From a virus: a DNA stretch of 24,852 bases. The notes beneath the pieces are model-generated. The model ran no database searches. It saw only the letters and a list, made by a program, of their open reading frames with translations, and was not told the origin of the DNA. The stretch lies in IMG/VR virus record IMGVR_UViG_3300002144_000053, positions 1-24,852 of that record. The stretch is one strand, 5' to 3'. The translations under genes were made by a program, and so were the position numbers. Of this stretch, positions 3,291-24,852 are shown piece by piece. Each line of letters opens with the position of its first letter. Position 1 is the stretch's first letter.

Positions 3291-4865
3291 TTAAATAACT
3301 ATACTGTAATCTCCTTCGTTATAATAACCTTCGTATGACTTCATCCATGCGGCTTCTTCTGCTGGATGAACACTGTTTGCGGGTGTAGATGCAAAACGAT
3401 ATTGAACTTGTGTAGTTAGATTGAGTACATATTCTGTTGTTGTTATCTCACTTGAATCAAATGCAACATACCATTTACCTAACGATGAACTGTACTGAAG
3501 GATATCATTTGCCTCACCATTAGCAATCGTGTAGATTGTACCTGTTCCTGCAGGTTGGACAGTGTTGTAAGTAAATTCTGTACCAATAGTATTTGATGTC
3601 GCTCCTAACTGTGTAAAATCAGTGTCTCCTACAAAAGCAATCATATATCGGTTGCCAGTAACCATTGTAGTTACTGCTCTTGCAGTGGTACTACTGAGTA
3701 TTGTACCCCATGAAGTAGCATCATCTCCGACTGTATCGACAATCAAATACCTTTTGTTTGCAATTGGTCCAGGCAGTCCTGCGTTAGGTCCAACAAGAAT
3801 CGGATTGATCACACTGTCAACTGGATCTAATGTATTTGTGGGTAAAGTATCAGGATCAATACTAAAGATTAGATATCGATCATCTAACGGGTCAACAACG
3901 ATTGTACCCACAATCTCATTTTCCATATACGGATTGTCTAACCACACTTGAGAAATGCCTGGTCTATATGCGCCGTATACGTTTAACAAACTTGTCCAAT
4001 AGATATTTGTATCTGGGTTAACCGGAGTCTCTAACGAACTATTCGGTGTATCTTGGAACGTTGATGCTTCTGGTAATAGTTGCAATGCATTGCCTATTAA
4101 TAATAATTTGTATCCGTATGGTGAAATCTTTTGACGAGTGCCCATTAACAAATCATCATCTTTCATGTCTGCTTGTGTTTTTCCTTCGAAGATAGAAGCA
4201 ATGATTTTATTAATGACACCGTATTTTTTAAGTTTAGACGATGTAGTTAACCATATAGGAATATAAAACTTCCAACTCATTACGTCAATTGGATTACCTG
4301 TGCCTTGTGGTATAGTACGGGAAGAGAATGTTAACCCATCTTGGTATACAACTGTCAATGATGTCCAATCTATATAATTGTCTGTGCTTTGAATTTCTAA
4401 ACTTGGATTGAACAATGTACCCAATTGTTCAATGATTTCTAATTTCTGTTGATAGTTAGTTGTCCAAAAATCAACTTGAAGTCTTAATGTGTACGGAACG
4501 GGCATTAACTTCTCAACAGTGAAGGCCTGCCCCTGTACTGTCTCATACGAGTCGGTCCCTGCATTGTATGCTCTTTGACGCACTTGTTGCTTCTCAACGA
4601 AGAAGGGCTCCTGTGTGCGTCTCTGATCGTATTCTAAGCCATTGATGTAGTATGTACACAACGGTGCAGAGGGCATGTTAGATGCCGAGTTGTTGGCAAT
4701 AATAGTAGATGCTTGTCTACTTGAATCTCCGTATTGAATTGGAACTCTAACTAAAATATCATTTCCGTTAGGATCCTTTCCTTTAGTCACGTACCAGTTA
4801 CTAAAGATTTTTGCAAATTGAATTAAGAATCTGCGTATTTGGTTATCGTAAAAATATTGTGCCAT
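3291..4865 (-). CDS. 15: Tail sheath stabiliser / tail completion protein gp15, with long C-terminal extension
   Basis: 524 residues; T4 gp15 is 272. The first ~230 residues follow T4 gp15: YFYDNQIRRFLIQFAKIFSN at the N-terminus, LVRVPIQYGDSSRQ (about 38-51), PLCTYYINGLEYD (about 68-80), PVPYTLRLQVDFWTTNY and IIEQLGTLFNP (about 122-154). In T4, gp15 caps the finished tail and joins it to the neck. The C-terminal half is extra: a domain around 370-391 (KRYLIVDTVG, SWGTI) and 449-471 (NGEANDILQYSS, KWYVAFDSSE) appears split by an inserted module at about 398-446 (VTGNRYMIAF, DTDFTQLGATSNT, AGTGTIY) that is also in the protein encoded at 1096. It lies 5 bases after gp14, in T4 order, with a weak GGGA ribosome site. 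Confidence 0.85.
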   Translation of the reverse strand: MAQYFYDNQIRRFLIQFAKIFSNWYVTKGKDPNGNDILVRVPIQYGDSSRQASTIIANNSASNMPSAPLCTYYINGLEYDQRRTQEPFFVEKQQVRQRAYNAGTDSYETVQGQAFTVEKLMPVPYTLRLQVDFWTTNYQQKLEIIEQLGTLFNPSLEIQSTDNYIDWTSLTVVYQDGLTFSSRTIPQGTGNPIDVMSWKFYIPIWLTTSSKLKKYGVINKIIASIFEGKTQADMKDDDLLMGTRQKISPYGYKLLLIGNALQLLPEASTFQDTPNSSLETPVNPDTNIYWTSLLNVYGAYRPGISQVWLDNPYMENEIVGTIVVDPLDDRYLIFSIDPDTLPTNTLDPVDSVINPILVGPNAGLPGPIANKRYLIVDTVGDDATSWGTILSSTTARAVTTMVTGNRYMIAFVGDTDFTQLGATSNTIGTEFTYNTVQPAGTGTIYTIANGEANDILQYSSSLGKWYVAFDSSEITTTEYVLNLTTQVQYRFASTPANSVHPAEEAAWMKSYEGYYNEGDYSIVI

Positions 4866-6744: not shown

Positions 6745-7887
6745 ATGGCTACTAGAAAACAAAAAAACGTTTACTTCACACCTGAACCAAAATGGGAAAC
6801 CTTTAAGAAACTTGTTGATCCTACTGAACAATCTAAGGCATATCAAGACTGCCAGTACTTTATCCGTACCGAAATCAATGATAAGAAACGCATCACTATT
6901 GCCAGAAAATGGATTAAAGAAGAATCAGATTGGGATGCTGGTGACATAGAGGTTATTCTCAGAAATCCAGATTGGACTTTTGGCTCTTCTTCAAGTGCGT
7001 TCTTTTTCAAAACAAAGGTAGGATACCTGCCTGAAGCAAATAGAAGCCATGTTGAGAAACTGTCAGCCGAATGGATAGACTCGGGTAATAAAATTCTACA
7101 AGAAAAAGAAGAGAAGATTAAAGACAGACCTAATCGACCTTCAATACAAGATATCATGCTAGAAAAGTTATTTGAAGCAGGCGGAACAATTGATGGTCTA
7201 ATAGATCAATGGATTGAAGATGAAATAAAACTTGACTTGAAATTTAATGCTCAAGTTATGAAAATCTTAAACGAGTACAATCCATTAGCAAACCATGTTC
7301 CTCAACTCGTCTCTGCTTATGAAAGAGAGAAAGCAGAATTTGTAGAAGTGTTATCTGGGAAAGATGAACAGTTAAATGAAGCATATAGCAATTTTAGTAA
7401 AACTAAAATCAAGCAAACAATAGGTCTTTATGATACTATTATTAGTCTGTTGAACTCTTATGCTACGTTGAAGATTCAATCTAGGGTAAAACGTAAGACT
7501 AAACCAATATCTCCAGAGAAGGCTGTATCTAAGTTAAAGTATCTAAAAAAGTTTACATGTGATCAAACCAAAATAACATTAGAAAGTGTCCGACCAACAG
7601 AACTGCACCACGCAAAAGAAGCATGGGTGTATGATACTGCAAAACGCAAACTGCACCACTATGTCGCAGATGAGTTTGCCGGCGAGATGTTTGTTAAAGG
7701 TAATACATTGCTTGGCTTTGACAAAGCAAAGAGTCAGATTAAGACTCTGCGTAAACCTAAAGAGCAACTCAAAGAAATCATGGGAAGCAAGCCTTCCGCA
7801 AGAACTTACTTTGACAAGATCAAAGCAGTAAGCATCAAACCTACTGGTCGTTTCAATGATGCTCTTGTTATCTTAAAGGCATTCTAA
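6745..7887 (+). CDS. Conserved marine T4-like phage protein of unknown function
   Basis: 380 residues; start set by GGGGA upstream of the ATG. I recognise the type from marine myoviruses but know no function. The N-terminal half is charged and helical, with a probable coiled coil about 110-140 and 200-240. The C-terminal ~120 residues carry the most conserved-looking stretch: KLKYLKKFT, then SVRPTELHHAKEAWVYDTAKRKLHHYV, KGNTLLGFDKAKS, LRKPKEQL, and a closing ALVILKAF. The protein is Lys-rich and has no signal or membrane segment. It lies divergent from gp14 and 33 bases before gp13, so a role in neck or head assembly is possible, but that is inference from position only. The frame at 6680 and its overlaps are shadows. 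Confidence 0.75.
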   Translation: MATRKQKNVYFTPEPKWETFKKLVDPTEQSKAYQDCQYFIRTEINDKKRITIARKWIKEESDWDAGDIEVILRNPDWTFGSSSSAFFFKTKVGYLPEANRSHVEKLSAEWIDSGNKILQEKEEKIKDRPNRPSIQDIMLEKLFEAGGTIDGLIDQWIEDEIKLDLKFNAQVMKILNEYNPLANHVPQLVSAYEREKAEFVEVLSGKDEQLNEAYSNFSKTKIKQTIGLYDTIISLLNSYATLKIQSRVKRKTKPISPEKAVSKLKYLKKFTCDQTKITLESVRPTELHHAKEAWVYDTAKRKLHHYVADEFAGEMFVKGNTLLGFDKAKSQIKTLRKPKEQLKEIMGSKPSARTYFDKIKAVSIKPTGRFNDALVILKAF

Positions 7888-7891
7888 AGAA

Positions 7892-7899
7892 GATAAATA
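7892..7899 (+). promoter_or_regulatory. Late promoter box GATAAATA before gp13
   Basis: GATAAATA, CTCGT, then A at 7905 as the predicted start. That gives a 16-base leader containing CAGGA before the gp13 ATG at 7921. It lies just after the stop of the preceding gene. Confidence 0.75.
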
Positions 7900-7920
7900 C
7901 TCGTAACAGGAATTTATTAT

Positions 7921-8706
7921 ATGGCCGCAAACGAATTATCAGTACCCAACAATCAGAACCTTGAACAACTGAAAGAGTCAATGTTCGATAGCATTCGCTA
8001 TAGGCTGGGCGATGGGATTGTGGACCTTGAATTAGATCCAGAGCATTATGAAGCCGCATATAAGTATGCTGTTAAAACTTATAGACAACGAGCAGAGAAC
8101 TCAGTACAAGAATCTTACACACTGTTGACAGTACACAGAGACCAAGACACTTATACATTACCAAATGAGTTTATTAACGTAAGACAAGTCTTCAGAAGAA
8201 CAATCGGACTTGAAACCGGTCCAGGGGCATCGTCATTTGATCCATTCTCAAGTGCGATTCTAAACACTTACTTGTTGAACTACAACTATGCTGGTGGTCT
8301 AGCAACATATGACTTCTATGCAGGCTATGTAGAACTTGCCGCTAGAATGTTTGGTGGCTTTGTTATCTACACATTTGATCCTGTTACTAAAACAATTAGA
8401 TTTGTTAGAGACTTCAAAGGCTCTGGTGAACAAATTCTTATCTGGGCAGATGTAACACGTCCAGAAACTTCGCTATTACAAGATCCTGGCATATCACCTT
8501 GGATGGAAGACTTTGTACTAGCAACAGTTACTATTGCTATTGGACAAGCACGTGAAAAGTTCTCAACTATTCAAGGCCCAGGCGGCGGTACTGCTCTAAA
8601 CGGTGCGGCTATGAAAGCAGAAGGTAAAGCAGGACAAGAGCAATGTCTCAAAGACCTCAGAGACTACGTTGATTACTCACAACCTCTTACTTGGATTCAG
8701 GGTTAA
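7921..8706 (+). CDS. 13: Neck protein gp13
   Basis: 261 residues (T4 gp13 is 309). The N-terminal part (SIRYRLGDGIVDLELDPEHYEAAYKYAVKTYRQRAENSVQESY, abridged here to its key RLG, LDPEHYE and YRQRAEN elements) is the helical neck-protein region, followed by a beta-rich centre and the helical end (WMEDFVLATVTIAIGQAREKF, GGGTALNGAAMKAEGKAGQEQ). In T4, gp13 and gp14 make the connector-side neck that the completed tail attaches to. The gene has its own late promoter and a CAGGA ribosome site. Here gp13 is on the plus strand while its usual followers gp14 and gp15 are on the minus strand. The last 224 bases are repeated exactly at 10390. Confidence 0.8.
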   Translation: MAANELSVPNNQNLEQLKESMFDSIRYRLGDGIVDLELDPEHYEAAYKYAVKTYRQRAENSVQESYTLLTVHRDQDTYTLPNEFINVRQVFRRTIGLETGPGASSFDPFSSAILNTYLLNYNYAGGLATYDFYAGYVELAARMFGGFVIYTFDPVTKTIRFVRDFKGSGEQILIWADVTRPETSLLQDPGISPWMEDFVLATVTIAIGQAREKFSTIQGPGGGTALNGAAMKAEGKAGQEQCLKDLRDYVDYSQPLTWIQG

Positions 8707-8711
8707 CATCA

Positions 8712-9977
8712 TTGATTGATAGTATTCAATTCACAGACAATATTTGGTATATCGGAGTTGAATGTGGAGAGATTCCATCTAAAAGACCTCCATTTCGAGG
8801 TCATATCAACACCGCTGATATTACAACCACTGATTTAGAAAATGTAGACCATTTGATTATGGGGTTCATGTTATATGAACCACAAATATACGATGATTTT
8901 ACAGATTGGGTAAAAGATACAGTAAACTATCTTCATCAAAGCAATATGTTCCCCAATCTAAAAAACATATATATATTGTATTCAAATGTTACAGTTAATG
9001 TTGCAGAATTACCTGATCATTATATGATTTATGGTCATCAACCTCGATACTATATTTTACGATCTGATGGGACTGAAGAAAAATCTGTTGGTTTAGATCC
9101 TAATAAGAACTGGATAGATACCCTTGCTAATCCTAAAGCCATATGGTTAGTAGGAGATGTGTCAAATAGAGTTCATAAATTACCTCTGTTGTATAAATTT
9201 GTAACTACCAATTCGTTAGACTCATTAGATTATTCTTTGACATCTGTATTAAATGATTCAGACATGGGCGATCCTTTAGATAAAACTGATCCTATGAGAA
9301 CCGAGTCTATAATTCACACTTTTAAACAAGTGCATAATATGGATATAGATTATGACCAGTTAGTTGGAATATATAACTCACATGTAAAGACACTGCCTGG
9401 TGATGAATTCAGTAACTTAGTACGTAAAGGTAAACATGCGTTTGATATTGCTACCTATACTTTTCCAAAAGAATGGAACGATGCGTGTCTAGTTGTTATG
9501 CCAGAGACTTGGTTCGATCATCCGCATCCAAATAATAGACATTTTTGGGAAAGCAATACCTACCCAACAACAGAAAAGACATGGAAACCTATTGCCACTA
9601 AAAAACCTTTGTTAGGCATCAGTAAATTTGACCAACAAGAGAAAACATTAGAAAGTTTAGGATACCGAACTTTTAGAAAATACACTACACGCCCAGAGTT
9701 ACTAGATAATGAACATGATATGAAAGTATATATTGATGTAGCCCACGAAAGAATAATGTCATTTCTTTCACAGTGTGAAAGTTACAAAGAAGGTATACAA
9801 GCAGACATAGAATATAACTACCAACACCATCAACGAGTGTTAAAGGATGAATGGGAATTGTTATATAAAAGTTGTCCACCTCTAAAACATGTTAATAAAA
9901 TAAAATTCCTAAGGCTATTCACTGTCCCAGCAGAGTCAAATATAAATACATTCCCTATATCTGATTGGGTATTGTAA
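8712..9977 (+). CDS. Glycosyltransferase-like protein, copy A
   Basis: 421 residues from a TTG start, chosen because it is the TTG shared by both copies, lies 5 bases after the gp13 stop and has AGGG 9 bases upstream; an in-frame TTG at 8691 inside gp13 is less likely. The N-terminal half (DNIWYIGVECGEIPS, MGFMLYEPQI) is unfamiliar. The C-terminal part resembles the nucleotide-sugar side of GT-B enzymes of the exostosin/fucosyltransferase type: VVMPET (261-266), then TEKTWKPI (287-294), a KPLLGIS strand, and LESLGYRTF (313-321). Such proteins could modify virion, DNA or host glycans; the acceptor is unknown and activity is inferred only. It is probably translationally coupled to gp13. Confidence 0.7.
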   Translation: MIDSIQFTDNIWYIGVECGEIPSKRPPFRGHINTADITTTDLENVDHLIMGFMLYEPQIYDDFTDWVKDTVNYLHQSNMFPNLKNIYILYSNVTVNVAELPDHYMIYGHQPRYYILRSDGTEEKSVGLDPNKNWIDTLANPKAIWLVGDVSNRVHKLPLLYKFVTTNSLDSLDYSLTSVLNDSDMGDPLDKTDPMRTESIIHTFKQVHNMDIDYDQLVGIYNSHVKTLPGDEFSNLVRKGKHAFDIATYTFPKEWNDACLVVMPETWFDHPHPNNRHFWESNTYPTTEKTWKPIATKKPLLGISKFDQQEKTLESLGYRTFRKYTTRPELLDNEHDMKVYIDVAHERIMSFLSQCESYKEGIQADIEYNYQHHQRVLKDEWELLYKSCPPLKHVNKIKFLRLFTVPAESNINTFPISDWVL

Positions 9978-9990
9978 GACCCAAAAACAC

Positions 9991-10019
9991 TTGACTTTCG
10001 TCATCAACTACTCTATAAT
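9991..10019 (+). promoter_or_regulatory. Near-consensus sigma70 promoter before dNMP kinase copy A
   Basis: TTGACT (9991-9996), a 17-base spacer, and TATAAT (10014-10019). This is the classic host-polymerase promoter, 5 of 6 plus 6 of 6. The start would be near 10026, giving a short leader with AGAGGA before the ATG at 10046. It implies early, host-driven expression of the nucleotide-metabolism gene. Confidence 0.85.
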
Positions 10020-10045
10020 AGACTTCTAACTAGAGGATTATCCAT

Positions 10046-10435
10046 ATGATTATAGGCATTACAGGCTTAATTAGCAGTGGCAAAGATACTGCCGCAGACT
10101 ATCTTATCAGATTTCATGGCTTTAAGAAACTCAGTTATGCTGGAACTCTTAAAGATTGCGTAGCATCTATCTTTGGCTGGGATAGAGAAATGCTAGAAGG
10201 CACGACTCAAAGCAGTAGAGAATGGAGAGAAAAAATTGATCCATGGTGGGCAAAACGATTAGACATGCCGCATCTAACTCCTCGTTGGGTCTTACAGTAT
10301 TGGGGAACTGAAGTAGGTAGACGTACTTTTCATAACGACATCTGGGTAGCATCGATTGAGAATCAACTACGACAAATCACAGACATCTCTTACAAGATCC
10401 TGGCATATCACCTTGGATGGAAGACTTTGTACTAG
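10046..10435 (+). pseudogene. 1: Truncated dNMP kinase (gp1-like), copy A, chimeric 3' end
   Basis: Codons 1 to about 112 match the full kinase at 11962: the phosphate-binding loop GLISSGKDT (7-15) and the TTQSSREWREKIDP stretch are intact. After base 10314 the DNA diverges at mainly synonymous sites from the other copy (EVGRRTFHNDIWVASIENQLRQ versus EVARR...), so this end comes from a different allele. At about 10384 the reading frame runs into duplicated gp13 DNA out of frame and stops after a meaningless tail (ISYKILAYHLGWKTLY). The C-terminal ~90 residues of the kinase, including the VITDCRF segment, are missing. It keeps promoter and ribosome site, so a 129-residue product may be made but is probably inactive. 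Confidence 0.85.
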
Positions 10436-10620
10436 CAACAGTTACTATTGCTATTGGACAAGCACGTGAAAAGTTCTCAACTATTCAAGGCCCAGGCGGC
10501 GGTACTGCTCTAAACGGTGCGGCTATGAAAGCAGAAGGTAAAGCAGGACAAGAGCAATGTCTCAAAGACCTCAGAGACTACGTTGATTACTCACAACCTC
10601 TTACTTGGATTCAAGGATAA
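10390..10620 (+). pseudogene. 13: Orphan C-terminal fragment of gp13
   Basis: This is an exact copy of the last 224 bases of gp13 followed by a slightly different stop region (AAGGATAA instead of AGGGTTAA). An internal ATG at 10417 would allow a 67-residue peptide starting MEDFVLATVTIA, but no ribosome site is evident. It is a by-product of the tandem duplication. Its 3' end supplies the AGGA site for the downstream TTG start at 10628. Confidence 0.9.
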
Positions 10621-10627
10621 CTCTGAA

Positions 10628-11893
10628 TTGATTGACAGTATTCAGTTCACAGATAATATTTGGTATATCGGAATTGAATGTGGAGAGATTCCATCTAAAA
10701 GACCTCCATTTCGAGGTCATATCAGCACTGATCGTATTACAACCACTGATTTAGAAAAAGTAGACCATTTGATTATGGGGTTTATGTTGTATGAACCACA
10801 AATATGTGATGATTTTACAGATTGGGTGAAAGATACAGTAAACTATCTTCATCAAAGCAAAATGTTTCCCAATCTAAAAAACATATATATATTGTATTCA
10901 AATGTTACAGTTAATGTTGCAGAATTACCTGATCATTATATGATTTATGGTCATCAACCTCGATACTATATTTTACGATCTGATGGGACTGAAGAAAAAT
11001 CTGTTGGTTTAGATCCTAATAAGAACTGGATAGATACCCTTGCTAATCCTAAAGCCATATGGTTAGTAGGAGATGTGTCAAATAGAGTTCATAAATTACC
11101 TCTGTTGTATAAATTTGTAACTACCAATTCGTTAGACTCATTAGATTATTCTTTGACATCTGTATTAAATGATTCACACATGGGCGATCCTTTAGATAAA
11201 ACTGATCCTATGAGAACCGAGTCTATAATTCACACTTTTAAACAAGTGCATAATATGGATATAGATTATGACCAGTTAGTTGGAATATATAACTCACATG
11301 TAAAGACACTGCCTGGTGATGAATTCAGTAACTTAGTACGTAAAGGTAAACATGCGTTTGATATTGCTACCTATACTTTTCCAAAAGAATGGAACGATGC
11401 GTGTCTAGTTGTTATGCCAGAGACTTGGTTCGATCATCCGCATCCAAATAATAGACATTTTTGGGAAAGCAATACCTACCCAACAACAGAAAAGACATGG
11501 AAACCTATTGCCACTAAAAAACCTTTGTTAGGCATCAGTAAATTTGACCAACAAGAGAAAACATTAGAAAGTTTAGGATACCGAACTTTTAGAAAATACA
11601 CTACACGCCCAGAGTTACTAGATAATGAACATGATATGAAAGTATATATTGATGTAGCCCACGAAAGAATAATGTCATTTCTTTCACAGTGTGAAAGTTA
11701 CAAAGAAGGTATACAAGCAGACATAGAATATAACTACCAACACCATCAACGAGTGTTAAAGGATGAATGGGAATTGTTATATAAAAGTTGTCCACCTCTA
11801 AAACATGTTAATAAAATAAAATTCCTAAGGCTATTCACTGTCCCAGCAGAGTCAAATATAAATACATTCCCTATATCTGATTGGGTATTGTAA
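10628..11893 (+). CDS. Glycosyltransferase-like protein, copy B
   Basis: 421 residues from TTG, equivalent to the gene at 8712; the AGGA at 10614-10617 sits 10 bases upstream. It differs from copy A only near the N-terminus (for example IGIECGE for IGVECGE, STDRI for NTADI, DLEKV for DLENV, QICDD for QIYDD, SKMF for SNMF) and at one later residue, NDSHMG for NDSDMG. The C-terminal GT-B-like motifs TEKTWKPI and LESLGYRTF are the same. Both copies are intact, so the pair could be functionally redundant. Copy B precedes the intact kinase, so copy B plus kinase B may represent one parental arrangement. Function remains inferred. Confidence 0.7.
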   Translation: MIDSIQFTDNIWYIGIECGEIPSKRPPFRGHISTDRITTTDLEKVDHLIMGFMLYEPQICDDFTDWVKDTVNYLHQSKMFPNLKNIYILYSNVTVNVAELPDHYMIYGHQPRYYILRSDGTEEKSVGLDPNKNWIDTLANPKAIWLVGDVSNRVHKLPLLYKFVTTNSLDSLDYSLTSVLNDSHMGDPLDKTDPMRTESIIHTFKQVHNMDIDYDQLVGIYNSHVKTLPGDEFSNLVRKGKHAFDIATYTFPKEWNDACLVVMPETWFDHPHPNNRHFWESNTYPTTEKTWKPIATKKPLLGISKFDQQEKTLESLGYRTFRKYTTRPELLDNEHDMKVYIDVAHERIMSFLSQCESYKEGIQADIEYNYQHHQRVLKDEWELLYKSCPPLKHVNKIKFLRLFTVPAESNINTFPISDWVL

Positions 11894-11906
11894 GACCCAA
11901 AAACAC

Positions 11907-11935
11907 TTGACTTTCGTCATCAACTACTCTATAAT
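11907..11935 (+). promoter_or_regulatory. Near-consensus sigma70 promoter before dNMP kinase copy B
   Basis: Identical to the promoter at 9991: TTGACT (11907-11912), 17 bases, TATAAT (11930-11935). The start near 11942 gives a short leader with AGAGGA before the ATG at 11962. It serves the intact kinase gene. Confidence 0.85.
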
Positions 11936-11961
11936 AGACTTCTAACTAGAGGATTATCCAT

Positions 11962-12582
11962 ATGATTATAGGCATTACAGGCTTAATTAGCAGTGGCAAA
12001 GATACTGCCGCAGACTATCTTATCAGATTTCATGGCTTTAAGAAACTCAGTTATGCTGGAACTCTTAAAGATTGCGTAGCATCTATCTTTGGCTGGGATA
12101 GAGAAATGCTAGAAGGCACGACTCAAAGCAGTAGAGAATGGAGAGAAAAAATTGATCCATGGTGGGCAAAACGATTAGACATGCCGCATCTAACTCCTCG
12201 TTGGGTCTTACAGTATTGGGGAACTGAAGTTGCTAGACGCACATTTCATAATGACATTTGGGTAGCATCAGTAGAGAATCAATTAAGACAGGTAGAAGAT
12301 GATGTTGTTATCACTGATTGTCGATTTAAGAATGAAGTTGAAGCAATCAAAAATGCAGGTGGAACAACAGTCAGAATTAAAAGAGGTGAGCAACCTAACT
12401 GGTTAATTGATGCCGTTGATTACAATTACTATCAAAACCCACAAGCACTTGCTCGTCTAGTTGATCAGAATGTACATGCTAGTGAATATAGTAGTGTAGG
12501 ATTAGATTACGATCACATAGTTGATAACAACGGTACAATCGATGACTTACATAAATATATGGAGTTAATAGTCAACGGTTAA
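11962..12582 (+). CDS. 1: Deoxynucleoside monophosphate kinase (T4 gp1-like)
   Basis: 206 residues (T4 gp1 is 241). The N-terminus MIIGITGLISSGKDTAADYL has the Walker-A-like loop GLISSGKDT at 7-15, and the Asp after Lys is typical of this family (T4 has RSGKDT). The segment LSYAGTLKDCVASIFGW matches the T4 AGPIKDALAYAWG region. VLQYWGTEV parallels LMQALGTDL, VVITDCRF parallels YYIVPDTR, and the closing VDNNGTIDDL parallels ITNDGSLEEL. The family phosphorylates dNMPs to dNDPs for phage DNA synthesis in the cytoplasm. It has its own sigma70 promoter and AGAGGA site. Its 3' end overlaps the convergent HNH-like gene by 18 bases. Confidence 0.88.
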   Translation: MIIGITGLISSGKDTAADYLIRFHGFKKLSYAGTLKDCVASIFGWDREMLEGTTQSSREWREKIDPWWAKRLDMPHLTPRWVLQYWGTEVARRTFHNDIWVASVENQLRQVEDDVVITDCRFKNEVEAIKNAGGTTVRIKRGEQPNWLIDAVDYNYYQNPQALARLVDQNVHASEYSSVGLDYDHIVDNNGTIDDLHKYMELIVNG

Positions 12583-12915
12583 ATCACCGCGTTTCCAAAT
12601 AACTTCTTTTTTCTTTACTACCTCAACACAGTTTAAACAAACTGTTCGTAGGTTAACAAAACCTACATTGGTTGGATTCCCATCAATATGATATACGGTC
12701 ATCTGTGTGTGGTATAAACTTTTAAACCCACACAAAAAACAATTGCTGTCTTTTTTGTATCCTGCTCTTTGCCATAGGTAAACATGCTGTCTTTTGGGAT
12801 TCTTCTTCTTACATAACTCACACATGCTTCTATAATGCCGTACGCCTTCCCTTACATAATTGACTGCACACACACTTTTATTGCATTTTTTACAGATTGG
12901 CCTAGGTAAACTCAT
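12565..12915 (-). CDS. Small zinc-binding HNH-like protein
   Basis: 116 residues with two treble-clef-like cysteine sets: C8/C11 with C32/C35, and C59/C62 with C93/C96. Between the last two pairs lies H76-I-D-G-N80 and N88-L-R-T-V-C, the layout of an HNH nuclease fold (first His, middle Asn, closing Cys pair). The family is common in marine T4-like phages near the tail genes and is usually called hypothetical or HNH endonuclease. Activity is uncertain because the canonical HH/HN pair is not complete. It could be a homing-type nuclease or a structural zinc protein. It overlaps the dNMP kinase gene tail-to-tail by 18 bases. A perfect TATAAATA box ends 5 bases before its ATG. Confidence 0.8.
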   Translation of the reverse strand: MSLPRPICKKCNKSVCAVNYVREGVRHYRSMCELCKKKNPKRQHVYLWQRAGYKKDSNCFLCGFKSLYHTQMTVYHIDGNPTNVGFVNLRTVCLNCVEVVKKKEVIWKRGDLTVDY

Positions 12916-12986: not shown

Positions 12987-13049
12987 ATGAAAAAACAACC
13001 AGGGTGTAACCCTCACAATCATACAAAAGGAAAATTATCATGGCACTAA
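12987..13049 (+). CDS. Possible 20-codon upstream ORF overlapping the gp18 start
   Basis: It would encode MKKQPGCNPHNHTKGKLSWH. Its ATG is at the predicted transcription start of the gp18 promoter, so it would be read as a leaderless ORF. It runs through the gp18 ribosome site (AAAGGAAAA) and ends at TAA 13047-13049, 7 bases inside gp18, in another frame. A role in tuning sheath translation is conceivable; it may also be chance. Confidence 0.35.
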   Translation: MKKQPGCNPHNHTKGKLSWH

Positions 13050-16000
13050 CATCACCAGGCGTAGAAGTAACCATCGTTGACGAGAGTCAATATTTGCCGG
13101 CCGCTCCGGCATCAATACCATTAATCGTATTAGCTACAGCAACAAATAAAGCAGACCCAACTTCAACAGGCATAGCACAAGCAACTACAGCGGCTAATGC
13201 AGGTAAAATGTACAGAATTACATCTCAACGTGATTTAGTTACTTTGTATGGTAATCCATTCTTTTACACATCGGGAGCCGGAACACCTATTCAAGGCTAC
13301 GAGTTAAATGAATATGGTTTACTTGCGGCTTACTCAGCACTTGGCATTAGTAACCAAGTTTTCTGTTTAAGAGCAGACATTGATCTAGCAAGTTTAGTAG
13401 GATCAACAGGTCGTCCAACAGGAGCACCAACAAACGGCGCTTACTGGGTAGACACAACAAATTCAACTTGGGGTATTAACGAGTTTAATGCAACAACTGG
13501 AGCATTTACTGCAAAGTCTCCGATCGTTCTTACTGACCTAACATCATTGGTAGGCGGCGTGGCAGGTGGTGCACCATTACAATCAATCGGAACTATCGGT
13601 GACTATGCAGTTGTAGCGTTATTTAACTACAATCAACCTACTGCTACTACTGCACCACAATATTACTACAAAAATACTAACAATGCTTGGATAGCAGTAG
13701 GTTCTAGTGCATGGCAAAATGCATGGCCAACACTTCAAGGCACTGTGGCTAATCCTACTTTAACACAAGGCGACTCTTTTGACATCATTTTAAGTGGTAC
13801 AAACAGTGCAACTATTTCTATTAGTGCAACTAACACATTAGCACAAGTTGTTTCTGATATCAATGCATTAGGTTGGGAATATCTTACAGCATCTTCAGCT
13901 AACAGCAAATTAACACTTTACTCTGCTCAAACAGGTGGCGACGATTCTCCTTACTTTATTAGACTTAACAACGGAGTAGGTACAGTTCTTGCTGATTTAG
14001 GTTTCTCTCAAGCAGTTACTACCAGTCAACAACCACAATTAACATATGGTACATCTGCTCAACAGCCATTATGGCAGTCAGGTCAGAACGCACCAAAACC
14101 AACTGGTTCAGTATGGATTAAAGTATCAGGAACTGGATTACAGCCTGATGTCTCTACATACAACAGTGCTACAGCAAATTGGGTAGCTAAAACCCCAACA
14201 TTTGCAGAATCTGACTGGGCTCAAATTTATGCGGCAGACTCAACAGGTGGCGGAGCAATCCCAGCTGGTTCAGTTTATGCACAATATGCATTCGATGGCA
14301 ACGCCTTCTCAGCAGGTCCAGTATACTTATGGTATCGTTCTGCAACAGGCGCAACAACAATTACAGGTAACAACACAACTCCTGACTTTACTTCTGGTCC
14401 TTATGTTGGTAAAGTACAAATTACTACACCAGGTGTTTCTGGTATAGGTGGTGCATTTACAATCAACTTAGCTGATGCAACTGATGCAACAGACTTTGTT
14501 ACTGCATGGTCTGGCGCAGGTATTCCAAACACAACTGCTGTTGTCAATGATGACGGATCAATTTCTTTATCACACACCAAAGGTGGTGTTATTGTATTAG
14601 ATGACTATGATGCATCAACAGGCGTTTCTAGTGGTTTATTCACAGAAGCTGGCTTTATTGCAGGTACAACAACAGGCTGTAAGTATGGTCCTTTCAAAAA
14701 TGACATTACATTCACTCCTGCTACTACAGCATCTGCTTCAGGTACTGGCTTTATTCCGAGTGTTACAAACAACTACCAACAATATGATTTTGACCCTGAC
14801 ACATTCTCAGTTCCAGGAACTGGCTACGCAGTAGGAGAGACTGTTACTATCTTAGGTACAGCATTAGGCGGAGCTACCCCTGCTAACGATTTAGTACTTC
14901 GTGTTACTAACGTTACTGCTGGTGTCCCAACTGGTGTTACATTGGTATCAGGTACAGGCGCGGCCTCTTATAAAGTACAATTGTCTAATTGGCAAGCACT
15001 ATCAACAACAACTTCAGGTGCTAACTCAATTACATCAAACGAAGGCGCTCCAACAGCGATCCCTACTAACTTGACTAACTGGTACTATTCAGCAACTAAT
15101 CAAGTTGATATTATGATTAACTATAACGGTGTATGGAGTGGCTACAAGAATCAAGGATATGATTCAAATGGCTTACCAAGTCCATCAGTAGCAAACGTAA
15201 CTGATTCTAAAGGACCATTAGTAGCTGCCACTGAGCCAACACTACAAAGTGACGGAACAGCATTAGAGTACGGTGATCTTTGGATCGACAGTTCTGACTT
15301 AGAAAACTATCCTGTCATTAGAAGATGGCAGTCAGTGACAAATGTTGACCAGTGGGTCTTAATAGACAATGCTGATCAAACTACACAACAAGGTATTTTA
15401 TTCGCTGACGCACGTTGGGCAACTAACGGTACAACTAACCCAGCAAACGATCCTATTCCAAGTATTGTATCAATGCTAACATCTGGTTACTTAGACGTAG
15501 ATGCTCCTTTATCATCAAATTCCCCAACAGGTATGTTACTTTGGAACACCAGACGCTCAGGTTACAACGTTAAGCAATACAGAGTTAACTACTTTAATGC
15601 TGACAGATTCCCTTCACCAGCAGTACTTCCTGCTCAAAAGGATGCATGGGTAACGGCTTCAGGCTTACAAGCAGACGGTTCACCTTATATGGGTCGTAAA
15701 GCACAAAGAGCAATGGTTGTTAAAGCATTGAAGTCCACTATTGATAGCAACACTGCTATTAGAGATGATGATAACTTCTTTAACTTACAAGCAACACCTA
15801 ACTATCCAGAACTACAACCTAACATGATTTTGTTGAACGCTGATAGAGGTGAGACCTCATACGTTATTGGCGATACACCAATGAGACTGAAAGATGACGC
15901 AACTGACATTCAGGCTTGGGCAACTAACGCTGTTGGCGCAACTGGCACTGGTGAAGATGGACTTGTAACTAGAAATACTTACATGGGTCTATTCTATCCA

Positions 16001-16633
16001 TCAGGAATCACAAACGACTTAGCAGGCAATACTGTTGCTGTTCCTTCATCACACATGATGATCAGAACTATGTTACGCAACGATAATATTGCTTATCCTT
16101 GGTTAGCTCCAGCTGGAACTAGACGTGGTATCATTGACAATGCTTCAAGCATTGGTTACATTGATGCACAATCTGGTGAGTTCCAAGTCATTAGAACACG
16201 TGTTGGTATTAGAGATGTGTTATACACAAACTTTATCAACCCAATGGTATTCTTCACAGGTAACGGCTTACTGAACTATGGTAACAAAACATCATTCGAT
16301 TCAGCATCTGCACTTGATAGAGTTAACGTAGCACGATTAGTTGCTTACATACGTAGACAACTGATTATTGCTTCAAGACCGTTTGTATTTGAACCAAACG
16401 ATCCACAAACAAGAAAGTCTATCTCAGCAGTAGTAGAAACATTATTCCAAGATTTGATTTCAAAGCGTGGATTATATGACTACTCAGTAGTTTGTGACGA
16501 GTCTAACAACACTCCAGCAAGAATTGATAGAAACGAACTTTGGATTGATATAGCAGTTGAGCCAGTCAAAGCGGCTGAATTTATATACATTCCAGTGAGA
16601 ATCTTTAATACTGGTGAGTTATCAGGTTCATAG
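13040..16633 (+). CDS. 18: Tail sheath protein gp18, greatly enlarged
   Basis: 1197 residues against 659 in T4. The N-terminus (MALTSPGVEVTIVDESQY) and the C-terminal ~380 residues (LLWNTRRSGYNV, MMIRTMLRNDNIAYPWLAPAGTR abridged, YIDAQSGEF, LNYGNKT, VARLVAYIRRQL, RPFVFEPND) are the conserved contractile sheath core. About 120-750 is a block of inserted domains: GAYWVDTT (133-140), a segment at 238-322 and another at 457-545 that look like flagellin hook-IN motifs (TISISATNTLAQVVSDINALG and the GSISLSHTKGG part), GTGYAVGETVTILGTALGG (593-611), and GDLWIDSSDL (745-754). These should decorate the outside of the tail. It has the AAAGGAAAA ribosome site and a late promoter, and is followed by a hairpin. 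Confidence 0.93.
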   Translation: MALTSPGVEVTIVDESQYLPAAPASIPLIVLATATNKADPTSTGIAQATTAANAGKMYRITSQRDLVTLYGNPFFYTSGAGTPIQGYELNEYGLLAAYSALGISNQVFCLRADIDLASLVGSTGRPTGAPTNGAYWVDTTNSTWGINEFNATTGAFTAKSPIVLTDLTSLVGGVAGGAPLQSIGTIGDYAVVALFNYNQPTATTAPQYYYKNTNNAWIAVGSSAWQNAWPTLQGTVANPTLTQGDSFDIILSGTNSATISISATNTLAQVVSDINALGWEYLTASSANSKLTLYSAQTGGDDSPYFIRLNNGVGTVLADLGFSQAVTTSQQPQLTYGTSAQQPLWQSGQNAPKPTGSVWIKVSGTGLQPDVSTYNSATANWVAKTPTFAESDWAQIYAADSTGGGAIPAGSVYAQYAFDGNAFSAGPVYLWYRSATGATTITGNNTTPDFTSGPYVGKVQITTPGVSGIGGAFTINLADATDATDFVTAWSGAGIPNTTAVVNDDGSISLSHTKGGVIVLDDYDASTGVSSGLFTEAGFIAGTTTGCKYGPFKNDITFTPATTASASGTGFIPSVTNNYQQYDFDPDTFSVPGTGYAVGETVTILGTALGGATPANDLVLRVTNVTAGVPTGVTLVSGTGAASYKVQLSNWQALSTTTSGANSITSNEGAPTAIPTNLTNWYYSATNQVDIMINYNGVWSGYKNQGYDSNGLPSPSVANVTDSKGPLVAATEPTLQSDGTALEYGDLWIDSSDLENYPVIRRWQSVTNVDQWVLIDNADQTTQQGILFADARWATNGTTNPANDPIPSIVSMLTSGYLDVDAPLSSNSPTGMLLWNTRRSGYNVKQYRVNYFNADRFPSPAVLPAQKDAWVTASGLQADGSPYMGRKAQRAMVVKALKSTIDSNTAIRDDDNFFNLQATPNYPELQPNMILLNADRGETSYVIGDTPMRLKDDATDIQAWATNAVGATGTGEDGLVTRNTYMGLFYPSGITNDLAGNTVAVPSSHMMIRTMLRNDNIAYPWLAPAGTRRGIIDNASSIGYIDAQSGEFQVIRTRVGIRDVLYTNFINPMVFFTGNGLLNYGNKTSFDSASALDRVNVARLVAYIRRQLIIASRPFVFEPNDPQTRKSISAVVETLFQDLISKRGLYDYSVVCDESNNTPARIDRNELWIDIAVEPVKAAEFIYIPVRIFNTGELSGS

Positions 16634-16721: not shown

Positions 16722-17372
16722 ATGGCAACAGCCTCAGATACATTAAGAAATCTTTCGGTACAACCCGAAGATGGGAGCAATCAAGGCTTATTGATGCCTA
16801 AACTTCAATATAGGTTCCGTGTGAACTTTATTGATTTCGGAGCACAAGGCGATGATCAAGGAGCATTATCATTGACTAGACAAGTTATTGATGCCGCTCG
16901 TCCTCAAGTACAATTCGACGAGATTACATTGAATGCATATAATTCACGTGTATATCTTGCAGGTAAGCATACTTGGCAGCCTTTATCAATCAACGTCAGA
17001 GACGATGCTTCTGGTTTAATATCAAAAGCAGTTGGAGCTCAGTTACAGAAGCAATTAGACTTCTTCGAACAAGCATCAGCGGCCTCAGGTCAAGATTATA
17101 AGTTCTCTACAGAGATTCAAATTTTAGATGGTGGTAATGGCGTTAATGCACCGACTGTATTAGAAAACTGGTCATTAGCAGGTTGTTTCTTACAACAAGC
17201 AAACTATCAAACATTGAATTACGGTACTTCAGAAGCAGTTACTATTGCATTAACGATTCGTTTCGACAACGCAATTCAGACAAATGGCAACGGTGACTTA
17301 GCATCTTTACCTGGAGCAGGCGTAGGACAATCTGGTTTACAATCTACTCGTACACCAACTGGTACTGTTTAG
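16722..17372 (+). CDS. 19: Tail tube protein gp19
   Basis: 216 residues (T4 gp19 is 163). The protein follows the tube fold in order: the first beta strand in LQYRFRVNFIDFG, the loop and strand QVQFDEITLNAYNSRVYLAG, HTWQPLSINVRDD, a helix LQKQLDFFEQASAA, ENWSLAGCFLQQANYQTLNYG and the closing strand AVTIALTIRFDNA. Compared with T4 it has an N-terminal extension and a Gly/Ser/Thr-rich C-terminal tail. Tube subunits stack as hexamers inside the sheath and form the DNA channel. Its place directly after gp18 is the T4 order. It has its own late promoter with TAGGAG and a strong terminator, suited to a high-copy product. Confidence 0.9.
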   Translation: MATASDTLRNLSVQPEDGSNQGLLMPKLQYRFRVNFIDFGAQGDDQGALSLTRQVIDAARPQVQFDEITLNAYNSRVYLAGKHTWQPLSINVRDDASGLISKAVGAQLQKQLDFFEQASAASGQDYKFSTEIQILDGGNGVNAPTVLENWSLAGCFLQQANYQTLNYGTSEAVTIALTIRFDNAIQTNGNGDLASLPGAGVGQSGLQSTRTPTGTV

Positions 17373-17473: not shown

Positions 17474-17497
17474 ATGCCAATTGAAGGGACAATGTAA
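17474..17497 (+). CDS. 7-codon mini-ORF coupled to the tube-like gene
   Basis: It would encode MPIEGTM. It has its own ribosome site (AAGGAAA, 17461-17467) and its stop overlaps the next start as TAATG (17495-17499). A second ribosome site for the downstream gene, GAAGGGA, lies inside it. The arrangement suggests a leader peptide with translational coupling, but expression is unproven. Confidence 0.4.
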   Translation: MPIEGTM

Positions 17498-18552
17498 TGA
17501 CAACATATCTGCGTGATTTTAGACATGCCTCTAAAATATTTTTACCAAATAGTCAGAGTAATTCTCCTAAGGTTAAATTTTTATTTCATGCATATTTTGA
17601 AATTAACGAACAGGCATACAAGCCTCCTACTGGCGATAACTTTGGTATTCTTGTTAAGTCAGTTAAACTTCCTTCTTTTAAATTTGATACAGAAATAATG
17701 AATCAATATAATAGAAAAAGAATTATTCAAACTAAAATTAAATACGATCCAATAGAAGTTGTATTCCATGATGATAACCAAAGTCAAATGACAGCTATGT
17801 GGAATGCGTACTATCAATATAACTATGCTGACTCTGTTAATCAGACTGATGTACTTGGCGTGGCCAAAGCCGGCGTTGGTGCAAAATACCAAGCCAGAAA
17901 CATTTACAATCCTTCAATTGAAGGAGATGATAATTATGGTTATAGGGGTGGATCAACACAAGAAGACGGTACAAAAATTCCCTTCTTCAAAGATATTACA
18001 GTGTTTGGCTTTTGGCAACAGAACTTTCTTGCTTATACGTTAATTAATCCAATCATTACAAGTTTCGCACACGATACATATGATTATGCTGAAGGTGGTG
18101 GCGTCATGTCTAATACGATGACACTAGATTATGAAACTGTTACCTATAACACAGGTAAAATGGATGCCGCATCTCCTGAACTTTTTGTTACAGGGTTTGC
18201 TAATAATGCAAACTATGATAGAACAGAAAGCCCATTAGATTCTTATGCTAGTAATAGTCCTACCTCATCTCCTATAGGAGATACAGCCAGCGGCGCATAT
18301 GATAATCAAAACACTCAGGTAAGACCAAGTTCAGTATCTATAATAAATCAAGGCTTGAAGTCGGCCTTGGCGGCTAATCAGTCCAATAGTCCAAATACTA
18401 GAACACCTTCTGCAACTGCATTTTTTCCGACTAATGCGTCTAGTCCAACAGACATAAACCAAGCTAATCAGGGACAACCAACTGGGTCAAACAATAACAC
18501 AGTAGTTGACGCACCTCGAACAGCAGGTGTGCAAGTTACAGGTAATAGATAA
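17497..18552 (+). CDS. Tail tube-like (gp19/gp54-type) structural protein
   Basis: 351 residues. The first ~230 look like a tube-fold protein: KVKFLFHAYFEINE, FGILVKSVKLPSFKFDTEIMNQYNRK (abridged), YDPIEVVFHDD, a helix MTAMWNAYYQYNYAD, and the closing strands ITVFGFWQQNFLAYTLINPI and MSNTMTLDYETVTYN. This is the order seen in gp19. The remaining ~120 residues are Ser/Asn/Pro/Thr-rich, low-complexity and probably disordered. A likely job is the first ring of tube on the baseplate (T4 gp54 role) or the tail-end terminator ring; the sequence does not decide. It follows gp19 after a terminator and new promoter, and shares TAATG with the next gene. Confidence 0.75.
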   Translation: MTTYLRDFRHASKIFLPNSQSNSPKVKFLFHAYFEINEQAYKPPTGDNFGILVKSVKLPSFKFDTEIMNQYNRKRIIQTKIKYDPIEVVFHDDNQSQMTAMWNAYYQYNYADSVNQTDVLGVAKAGVGAKYQARNIYNPSIEGDDNYGYRGGSTQEDGTKIPFFKDITVFGFWQQNFLAYTLINPIITSFAHDTYDYAEGGGVMSNTMTLDYETVTYNTGKMDAASPELFVTGFANNANYDRTESPLDSYASNSPTSSPIGDTASGAYDNQNTQVRPSSVSIINQGLKSALAANQSNSPNTRTPSATAFFPTNASSPTDINQANQGQPTGSNNNTVVDAPRTAGVQVTGNR

Positions 18553-23254: not shown

Positions 23255-24852
23255 ATGGCACAAAGAAATATTGACTTCGGAGCATTCCCAGACGATCCAA
23301 ATGCGGACGCTATACGCTCGGCATTTGAAAAAGTACAGTTAAATTTTACAGAAGTATTTGCTGGCCTAGGCGACCAAGCAGTAGTCTCGGTCAATAAAAC
23401 AGCAGGCGCCGGAATATCAGTAAACCAACCAACTGGTAACGTTGTCATTACAAATAAAATGGCATGTGTGACAGTTCAATCAACCTCACTGGATTTAGGT
23501 TTAAATGCGTCCGATTCATTATCTCAAGTAGTATTGACGAGTGCGTCACAATCAGTCTTTATTGACCTACCTGCAAACATTACTACTGGATTACATAATT
23601 TATCGTTAACAGGCAATTTAATTGCACAAAACATAGTATCAAATGCAAACTTAACTACTGCAAATCTAGTAGTATCAAGTTCTGCTAATTTTTCAACTGT
23701 TCCTCTTACTGTACTATCATTAACTTCTACTGGCAACATTTCAGGCGGTAATTTAACTGTAAATACTGGCAATATTTCAGGCGGTACTGTAATTGTCACT
23801 AATGTTTATGCAAACTCTGGCGTAGTCAAGGGAGCAACTTTAAGTGGTAGTCTTACCACTGCGGCGCAACCAAATATTACATCTACTGGTACATTAACTT
23901 CATTAGCAGTAACTGCTAACGTTACTGCCGGAAATATCAATGCTACAGGTGGTAACTTTACATACGTTAAGGGTAATGGAGCTAATTTAACTGCTCTTAC
24001 TGGTGCTAATGTTACTGGTACAGTTGCTTTAGCAACCAAAGCAGGTACTGTTACAACTGCCGCCCAACCAAACATCACAAGTGTCGGGACATTAACAACA
24101 TTAAATGTTACAGGCAACGTTTCTGGTGCAGGCGGTATCTTTACATACGTTAACGGCAATGGTGCTAATCTATCTTCACTTACTGGAGCAAACGTCACAG
24201 GCGCAGTTCCTTTCGCAACTACAGCAAACGCAGTAGCAGGTGCAAACGTATCAGGTACAGTTGCTTTAGCAACCAAAGCAGGTACAGTAACAACTAATGC
24301 ACAACCAAATATCACATCTGTCGGCATTCTAACTGGACTAGGTGTTAATGGAACAATTACTGCTTCAGCGATTACAGCAAACACAGGGGTGTTTACAGGT
24401 AACGGATCTGGATTATCATCATTAACAGGTGCCAACGTAACAGGCGCTGTTTCCTTCGCTACAACAGCAAATGCAGTAGCCGGAGCCAATGTCTCTGGTA
24501 CAGTTGCTTTTGCTACAACTGCTAATGCAGTAGCCGGAGCAAATGTAAGTGGAACAGTCGCATTAGCAACAAGTGCAACAAGTGCAAACTCAGTCGCAGG
24601 TGCTAATGTATCTGGTACTGTAGCAAGTGCGACTTTAGCAACATACGCAACAACTGCAAACTCAGTCGCAGGTGCAAACGTATCAGGTGCAGTAAGTTTC
24701 GCATCAACTGCAAACGCAGTAGCAGGTGCTAATGTCAGTGGTACTGTTGCTTCAGCAACAAGTGCCGCAAGTGCAAACTCAGTCGCAGGTGCAAACGTAT
24801 CAGGTGCAGTTGCATTAGCAACATTTGCAGGTACAGCAAACGCAGTAGCAGG
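23255..24852 (+). CDS. Repetitive tail-fibre-like structural protein (3' end outside window)
   Basis: The frame is open for 532 codons to the window edge; start set by AGGAAAG and the late promoter. The N-terminus MAQRNIDFGAFPDDPNADAI with AFEKVQLNFTEVF is the usual virion-attachment start of marine myovirus fibre proteins. From about residue 190 the chain is built of repeats: QPNITSxGxL units near 23866, 24067 and 24302, FTYVxGNGANL units, and short ANxVAGANVSGxV units towards the end. Composition is almost only Ala, Val, Thr, Ser, Gly, Asn, Leu, as in trimeric beta-fibres. It should project from the baseplate and contact the host. The tip lies outside the window. The long minus-strand frame opposite it is a composition shadow. 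Confidence 0.85.
   Translation, partial: MAQRNIDFGAFPDDPNADAIRSAFEKVQLNFTEVFAGLGDQAVVSVNKTAGAGISVNQPTGNVVITNKMACVTVQSTSLDLGLNASDSLSQVVLTSASQSVFIDLPANITTGLHNLSLTGNLIAQNIVSNANLTTANLVVSSSANFSTVPLTVLSLTSTGNISGGNLTVNTGNISGGTVIVTNVYANSGVVKGATLSGSLTTAAQPNITSTGTLTSLAVTANVTAGNINATGGNFTYVKGNGANLTALTGANVTGTVALATKAGTVTTAAQPNITSVGTLTTLNVTGNVSGAGGIFTYVNGNGANLSSLTGANVTGAVPFATTANAVAGANVSGTVALATKAGTVTTNAQPNITSVGILTGLGVNGTITASAITANTGVFTGNGSGLSSLTGANVTGAVSFATTANAVAGANVSGTVAFATTANAVAGANVSGTVALATSATSANSVAGANVSGTVASATLATYATTANSVAGANVSGAVSFASTANAVAGANVSGTVASATSAASANSVAGANVSGAVALATFAGTANAVA
24224..24852 (+). repeat. In-frame ANxVAGANVSG coding repeats in the fibre gene
   Basis: The unit GCxAAxxCAGTxGCxGGxGC starts at 24224, 24467, 24521, 24584, 24656, 24710, 24773 and 24836. 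After the first gap of 243 bases, spacings are 54, 63, 72, 54, 63 and 63 bases: 18, 21 or 24 residues, always steps of three residues. The tract continues past the window. Confidence 0.9.

Follow-up and report, generated by a model that had tools for sequence, protein, structure and literature searches.

In the virus record IMGVR_UViG_3300002144_000053, a stretch of about 1.9 kb is repeated in tandem, and its two copies appear to be two alleles of one single-copy region, made up of the 3' end of a gp13-like neck gene, an accessory gene (hereafter X) and a dNMP kinase gene. Both alleles would circulate together among jumbo-type myoviruses that recombine with one another, and the blocks of identity and divergence between the copies would be recombination tracts inside those alleles, a view for which other contigs provide support. 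The tandem order itself most likely is not the structure of a viral genome, and the explanation that we consider probable, and favor over a real duplication, is that two single-copy haplotypes were joined head-to-tail during assembly. The window analyzed here is the whole virus record, 24,852 bases with no N, in which the gene order is gp13, X, a broken kinase, a gp13 3' fragment, a second X and an intact dNMP kinase (Table 1).

Table 1. Coordinates of the repeat copies, their blocks and the genes that they carry
Feature	Position	Strand	Basis
gp13-like neck / head-tail adaptor Ad2, intact, 261 aa	7921..8706	+	phrog_211, E 3.4e-23
Block near-identical to contig L013 (8139-8486, 348 bp, exact)	7843..8486	+	sequence comparison
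gp13 3' block, equal to 10390-10613	8476..8699	+	base-by-base copy comparison
Allele block 1 (gp13 end and X start), 23 columns different from 10614-10867	8700..8951	+	
Gene X copy 1, accessory, possibly GT-B-like, 421 aa from TTG	8712..9977	+	
1363-bp block, single difference (9261) from 10868-12230	8952..10314	+	
Sigma-70-like promoter TTGACT-17-TATAAT, 5' of kinase; repeated at 11907-11935	9991..10019	+	consensus match only
Broken dNMP kinase, L013-like allele up to its end	10046..10385	+	
Junction: kinase allele end 10385, TCTC 10386-10389, shared gp13 block from 10390	10385..10390	+	
gp13 3' fragment, 77 codons and stop	10387..10620	+	
Allele block 2, closest to L007 (97.6%)	10614..10867	+	
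Gene X copy 2	10628..11893	+	
Intact dNMP kinase, 206 aa; departs from L013-like sequence past 12230	11962..12582	+	

The gp13-like neck protein shares ~36-39% amino acid identity with its counterparts in the jumbo phages RaK2, PBECO4 and Atu_ph07. Other structural genes are found elsewhere in the window, including a long tail sheath protein of 1197 aa (13040-16633, +), another sheath-related protein encoded on the other strand (3291-4865, -), and two adjacent tail-tube-like proteins (16722-17372 and 17497-18552, +), both assigned to phrog_4542 and weakly similar to each other. The record ends inside an open reading frame (23255-24852, +) that carries many imperfect 'ANAVAGANVSG' repeats and is weakly tail-fibre-like (phrog_6942, E 7.5e-4). 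A 380-aa protein at 6745-7887 (+) belongs to phrog_11903, its HEPN-like Pfam match being weak and below cut-off.

Self-alignment places copy 1 at 8473-10374 and copy 2 at 10387-12290 with 98.1% identity, and a base-by-base alignment contains 42 differing columns in 1913. The copies are identical over the first 224 bp (8476-8699 and 10390-10613), differ at 23 columns, including four gaps, between 8700-8951 (252 bp) and 10614-10867, and then agree over 1363 bp (8952-10314 and 10868-12230) save for one base, G at 9261 and C at 11177, with exact runs of 309 and 1053 bp inside this block. At the kinase end (10315-10385 and 12231-12301), identity falls to 75%, as 18 of the 71 sites differ. The initial annotation had described this blockwise pattern correctly to the base, and it had also rightly called the kinase-end differences mostly synonymous (10, against 4 non-synonymous); in the middle gene, X, synonymous and non-synonymous differences number 8 each.

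The same annotation had argued that a simple duplication would diverge evenly, and the differences are not spread in this way: when the 42 differences were shuffled 20,000 times, the longest identical run averaged 190.5 bp and never exceeded 614 bp, and no shuffle reached the observed 1053 bp. Moreover, across the 38 substitution sites, the states of both copies occur among 11 relatives at 21 sites, that of copy 1 only at 10, that of copy 2 only at 7, and neither at none, so that at least one state is found in relatives at every site. Since the copy states recur in this way, most copy-to-copy variants are, by this alignment, natural polymorphisms rather than sequencing errors, and a single-copy error may still be conceivable, site by site, at any one of the 17 one-state sites. 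The lone difference in the long block is likewise polymorphic, with G at 9261 in L005 and L006 and C in L003, L004 and L007. The alignment used for site states and run lengths consists of 11 hand-picked relatives, those nearest to the window together with the X-less loci L022 and L040. Nothing was found in favor of sequencing errors or of a simple duplication followed by even divergence, and to this explanation we consequently give almost no credence.

Evidence for two parental alleles comes from an independent 7.1-kb contig, IMGVR_UViG_3300024433_000412 (L013), which has a single gp13, a single full kinase and no X. It matches the copy-1 kinase end (10313-10385) at 72 of 73 positions and then extends into a full 206-aa kinase, indicating that this end is a real allele; a contig in which the 10315-10383 allele runs on into an intact kinase gene is what the initial annotation had proposed looking for. 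Compared with copy 1 over 9990-10385, L013 shows one difference, and compared with copy 2, it is exact over 11906-12230 and diverged beyond. Upstream, identity between L013 and the window is 77.9% for 7000-7842, yet 8139-8486 match exactly. Breakpoints had been suggested near 8699, 8951 and 10314. That at 10314 holds, as L013 equals both copies up to 10314/12230 and then follows copy 1, and that at 8951 finds moderate support, L007 siding with copy 2 at 15 of 19 sites and with copy 1 at 4; the one at 8699 has no independent support.

The copy-2 X block is nearest to L007 (97.6%) and that of copy 1 to L003 (96.7% over 241 bp, 95.3% over a wider block). By sites, L003 is itself split, agreeing with copy 1 at 10 and with copy 2 at 8, so that these comparisons yielded no close carrier of the copy-1 X block. 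The two kinase ends relate differently to relatives. In exact searches of viral contigs, a stretch of the kinase from the shared block matched one contig (that of L013) and a stretch of X from it one (that of L004), and no other carrier was found of the shared gp13 block or the copy-2 kinase end.

The same patchwork recurs among the related contigs, which further supports two parental alleles. L005 and L006 share an exact run of 783 bp at 89.5% overall identity, L004 and L005 one of 496 bp at 90.3%, and L006 and L007 one of 350 bp at 89.6%, where the overall identity of these pairs would predict roughly 52-56 bp; some other pairs show no such excess, for example L022 and L040 (68 bp). Because independent contigs thus carry long exact runs beside diverged stretches, the blocks in the window can be read as ordinary recombination tracts of a mosaic population, with no special event needed in this genome.

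X lies between gp13 and the sigma-70-like promoter of the kinase, a pattern present within 100 bp upstream of the kinase in 73 of 156 loci. Loci were collected with the kinase (best 80 of 249 loci) and gp13 (best 80 of 594) among the queries; the resulting 165-locus set, used for direct repeats and the promoter, and 167-locus set come from overlapping queries and hold several loci per contig. The 167 loci reduce to 101 distinct gp13-to-kinase sequences, including a few truncated duplicates; among these 101, the gap is empty (<110 bp) in 41, holds one X in 31, two X in 2 (both from one contig), a remnant in 2 and unrecognised content in 25. L004, with X, and L022, without it, differ at only 5 of 786 gp13 and 4 of 621 kinase positions, so that X comes and goes cleanly, and their comparison puts the right edge of the X cassette at the promoter (9991..10019). 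X is thus, to judge from these sequences, an accessory gene at a gain/loss site where empty, occupied, doubled and remnant states occur. Examples of the site are the two window copies (8712-9977 and 10628-11893), L004/L022, L009 and L010. Within the 165 related loci, only one direct repeat reached both 150 bp and 85% identity, a 284-bp repeat at 87% in L155:2040-2914.

What X does is suggested by its predicted structure at most. No match was found in Pfam or PHROGs, in cultured phages, or among solved structures searched by sequence (E up to 1), and none of 123 candidate stretches from bacterial and archaeal genomes was confirmed as a relative; a literature search on the gene pair at this locus returned no paper. 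For the 22 members of an alignment (A1) drawn from the X types, leaving out short or cut pieces and near-duplicates, Pfam and PHROGs gave no glycosyltransferase family at E up to 0.1. The model of X (pLDDT 87) has its best Foldseek match in the PDB at E 5.8e-3, the matches being mostly GT-B enzymes and none reaching E 0.001. GT-B entries score VIA Z 7.5-9.5, in the same list as unrelated receptor entries with Z 7.8-8.5. The resemblance to GT-B glycosyltransferases is weak; that to unnamed phage proteins is clearer (best E 6.1e-9). X is therefore possibly a GT-B-like glycosyltransferase, which is a lead from modeling rather than a finding.

Downstream, a small HNH/zinc-finger-like protein (12565-12915, -) overlaps the kinase end on the opposite strand. 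Matches to the gene are found in 85 of 87 related loci, the exceptions being L086 and L058, a locus that stops at the kinase. The idea that a mobile HNH gene drives conversion of the kinase end was considered and dropped, the gene being apparently a fixed neighbor.

At the junction the joint is blunt and breaks both the kinase and gp13. The four bases TCTC mismatch both the L013 kinase and copy-1 gp13 and fit other gp13 alleles, such as those of L030 and L040, so that the right-hand partner seems to carry a different gp13 allele. When the closest alleles are compared, that of L013 for the kinase and the nearest ones for gp13, the overlap at the joint is 0 bp; the true parents may share a few bp. 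A 26-mer across the junction had no exact match in other viral contigs, a set that may lack the records nearest to the window. No second gp13 or kinase match was present in the 167 loci fetched from best-match lists, which are pieces, 153 of them holding both genes, and the same search on the window found two matches of each. Elsewhere, the copy-1 kinase end occurs in single copy in L013, and the copy-2 X block comes close to that of L007 (97.6%), with no exact carrier found of the copy-2 kinase end or the shared gp13 block.

These observations, namely the lack of a second gp13 or kinase in the 167 loci, the absence of the junction from the other viral contigs scanned, the blunt joint and the fit of TCTC to other alleles, are why merging is favored. 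Two haplotype contigs overlapping by ~1.9 kb would have been placed end to end, the first running 71 bp beyond the fork at 10314 and the second beginning 4 bp ahead of the shared gp13 block. In gp13, resemblance to L013 stops at 8486, no more than 11 bp from where the shared block begins (8476), and the kinase fork is followed by the joint after 71 bp; both end positions would follow from haplotype contigs that stop just past forks, and the first may be coincidence. Two points count against merging and duplication alike: a joint free of overlap is not made by a k-mer graph alone and requires a scaffolding-type join or a chimeric molecule, and a perfect repeat of 1053 bp is hard to resolve with short reads. 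A further point against merging is that the record contains no N. The k-mer size of the assembler was sought at the right contig end, where the last 21 bases recur once, which is uninformative. In simulated viromes, as far as the accessible text of PMC5610896 goes, chimeric contigs from two distinct genomes usually make up <5% of contigs of at least 10 kb, so that merging is uncommon but not rare. The initial annotation had left the choice between recombination and strain merging open: the allele blocks are supported as recombination tracts, and merging is favored, unproven as it is.

An alternative that we regard as rather unlikely is a genuine tandem duplication, produced when two co-infecting phages underwent unequal (illegitimate) recombination or template switching. 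The kinase of one partner would have been fused to the 3' end of gp13 from the second, leaving two X, a broken kinase and a gp13 remnant; the two alleles are indeed present, in the order expected from one unequal exchange. A perfect direct repeat of 1053 bp should be lost quickly by recombination. Equally doubtful in our judgment is the variant in which the window captures a short-lived intermediate, a hybrid genome with two X alleles and debris, formed by an unequal exchange between the kinase and gp13 of jumbo phages in the same infection. If true, unequal exchange would be a route for extra X copies at this site. A natural adjacent X pair does exist at the same site in IMGVR_UViG_3300014775_000479, and L008 begins partway through another X that precedes its own; however, the natural pair is 41% identical and free of debris, and kinase or gp13 debris is absent from all other fetched loci. 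Phage T4 readily makes tandem segmental amplifications, according to the accessible part of PMC9391042, but these typically have 6-10 bp of microhomology, which the joint lacks against the nearest alleles. Duplication inside one genome, with the copies made different later by gene conversion patches from other strains, would need only the junction and two tracts of conversion, one over 8700-8951 and one at the kinase end, and mosaic tracts of such size are common at the locus. It is nevertheless very improbable, as 10386-10389 fit the sequence of copy-1 gp13 no better than that of the L013 kinase, mismatching both, unless they are filler, and the kinase ends differ in their relationships to relatives.

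Under the favored reading, in which assembly merged two haplotypes, the window carries a warning: where such viral contigs show duplicated and broken genes, two strains may have been placed end to end. In addition, the gp13-kinase locus is one at which recombination adds, removes and reshuffles an accessory gene, and allele tracts can therefore be traced there. Strain-merged (chimeric) metagenome contigs resemble the window in that a single contig contains the same region in two allelic versions, with long shared stretches, two ways in and two out, and a junction absent elsewhere; here, in contrast, the versions stand in tandem with a clean joint and are not switched inside one copy. The T4 amplifications at dmd-tifA, in the portion of PMC9391042 available, are likewise direct tandem repeats in a myovirus with an accessory gene inside. 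However, the T4 repeats arise from one genome, typically at 6-10 bp of microhomology, whereas the joint here is blunt and two alleles are found at the X block and the kinase end, which does not fit a one-genome origin. Wild cyanophages, as the accessible text of PMC5112629 describes them, similarly recombine within and between co-occurring lineages, and the present case differs in its phage group and in its scale, 100-800 bp around one accessory gene.
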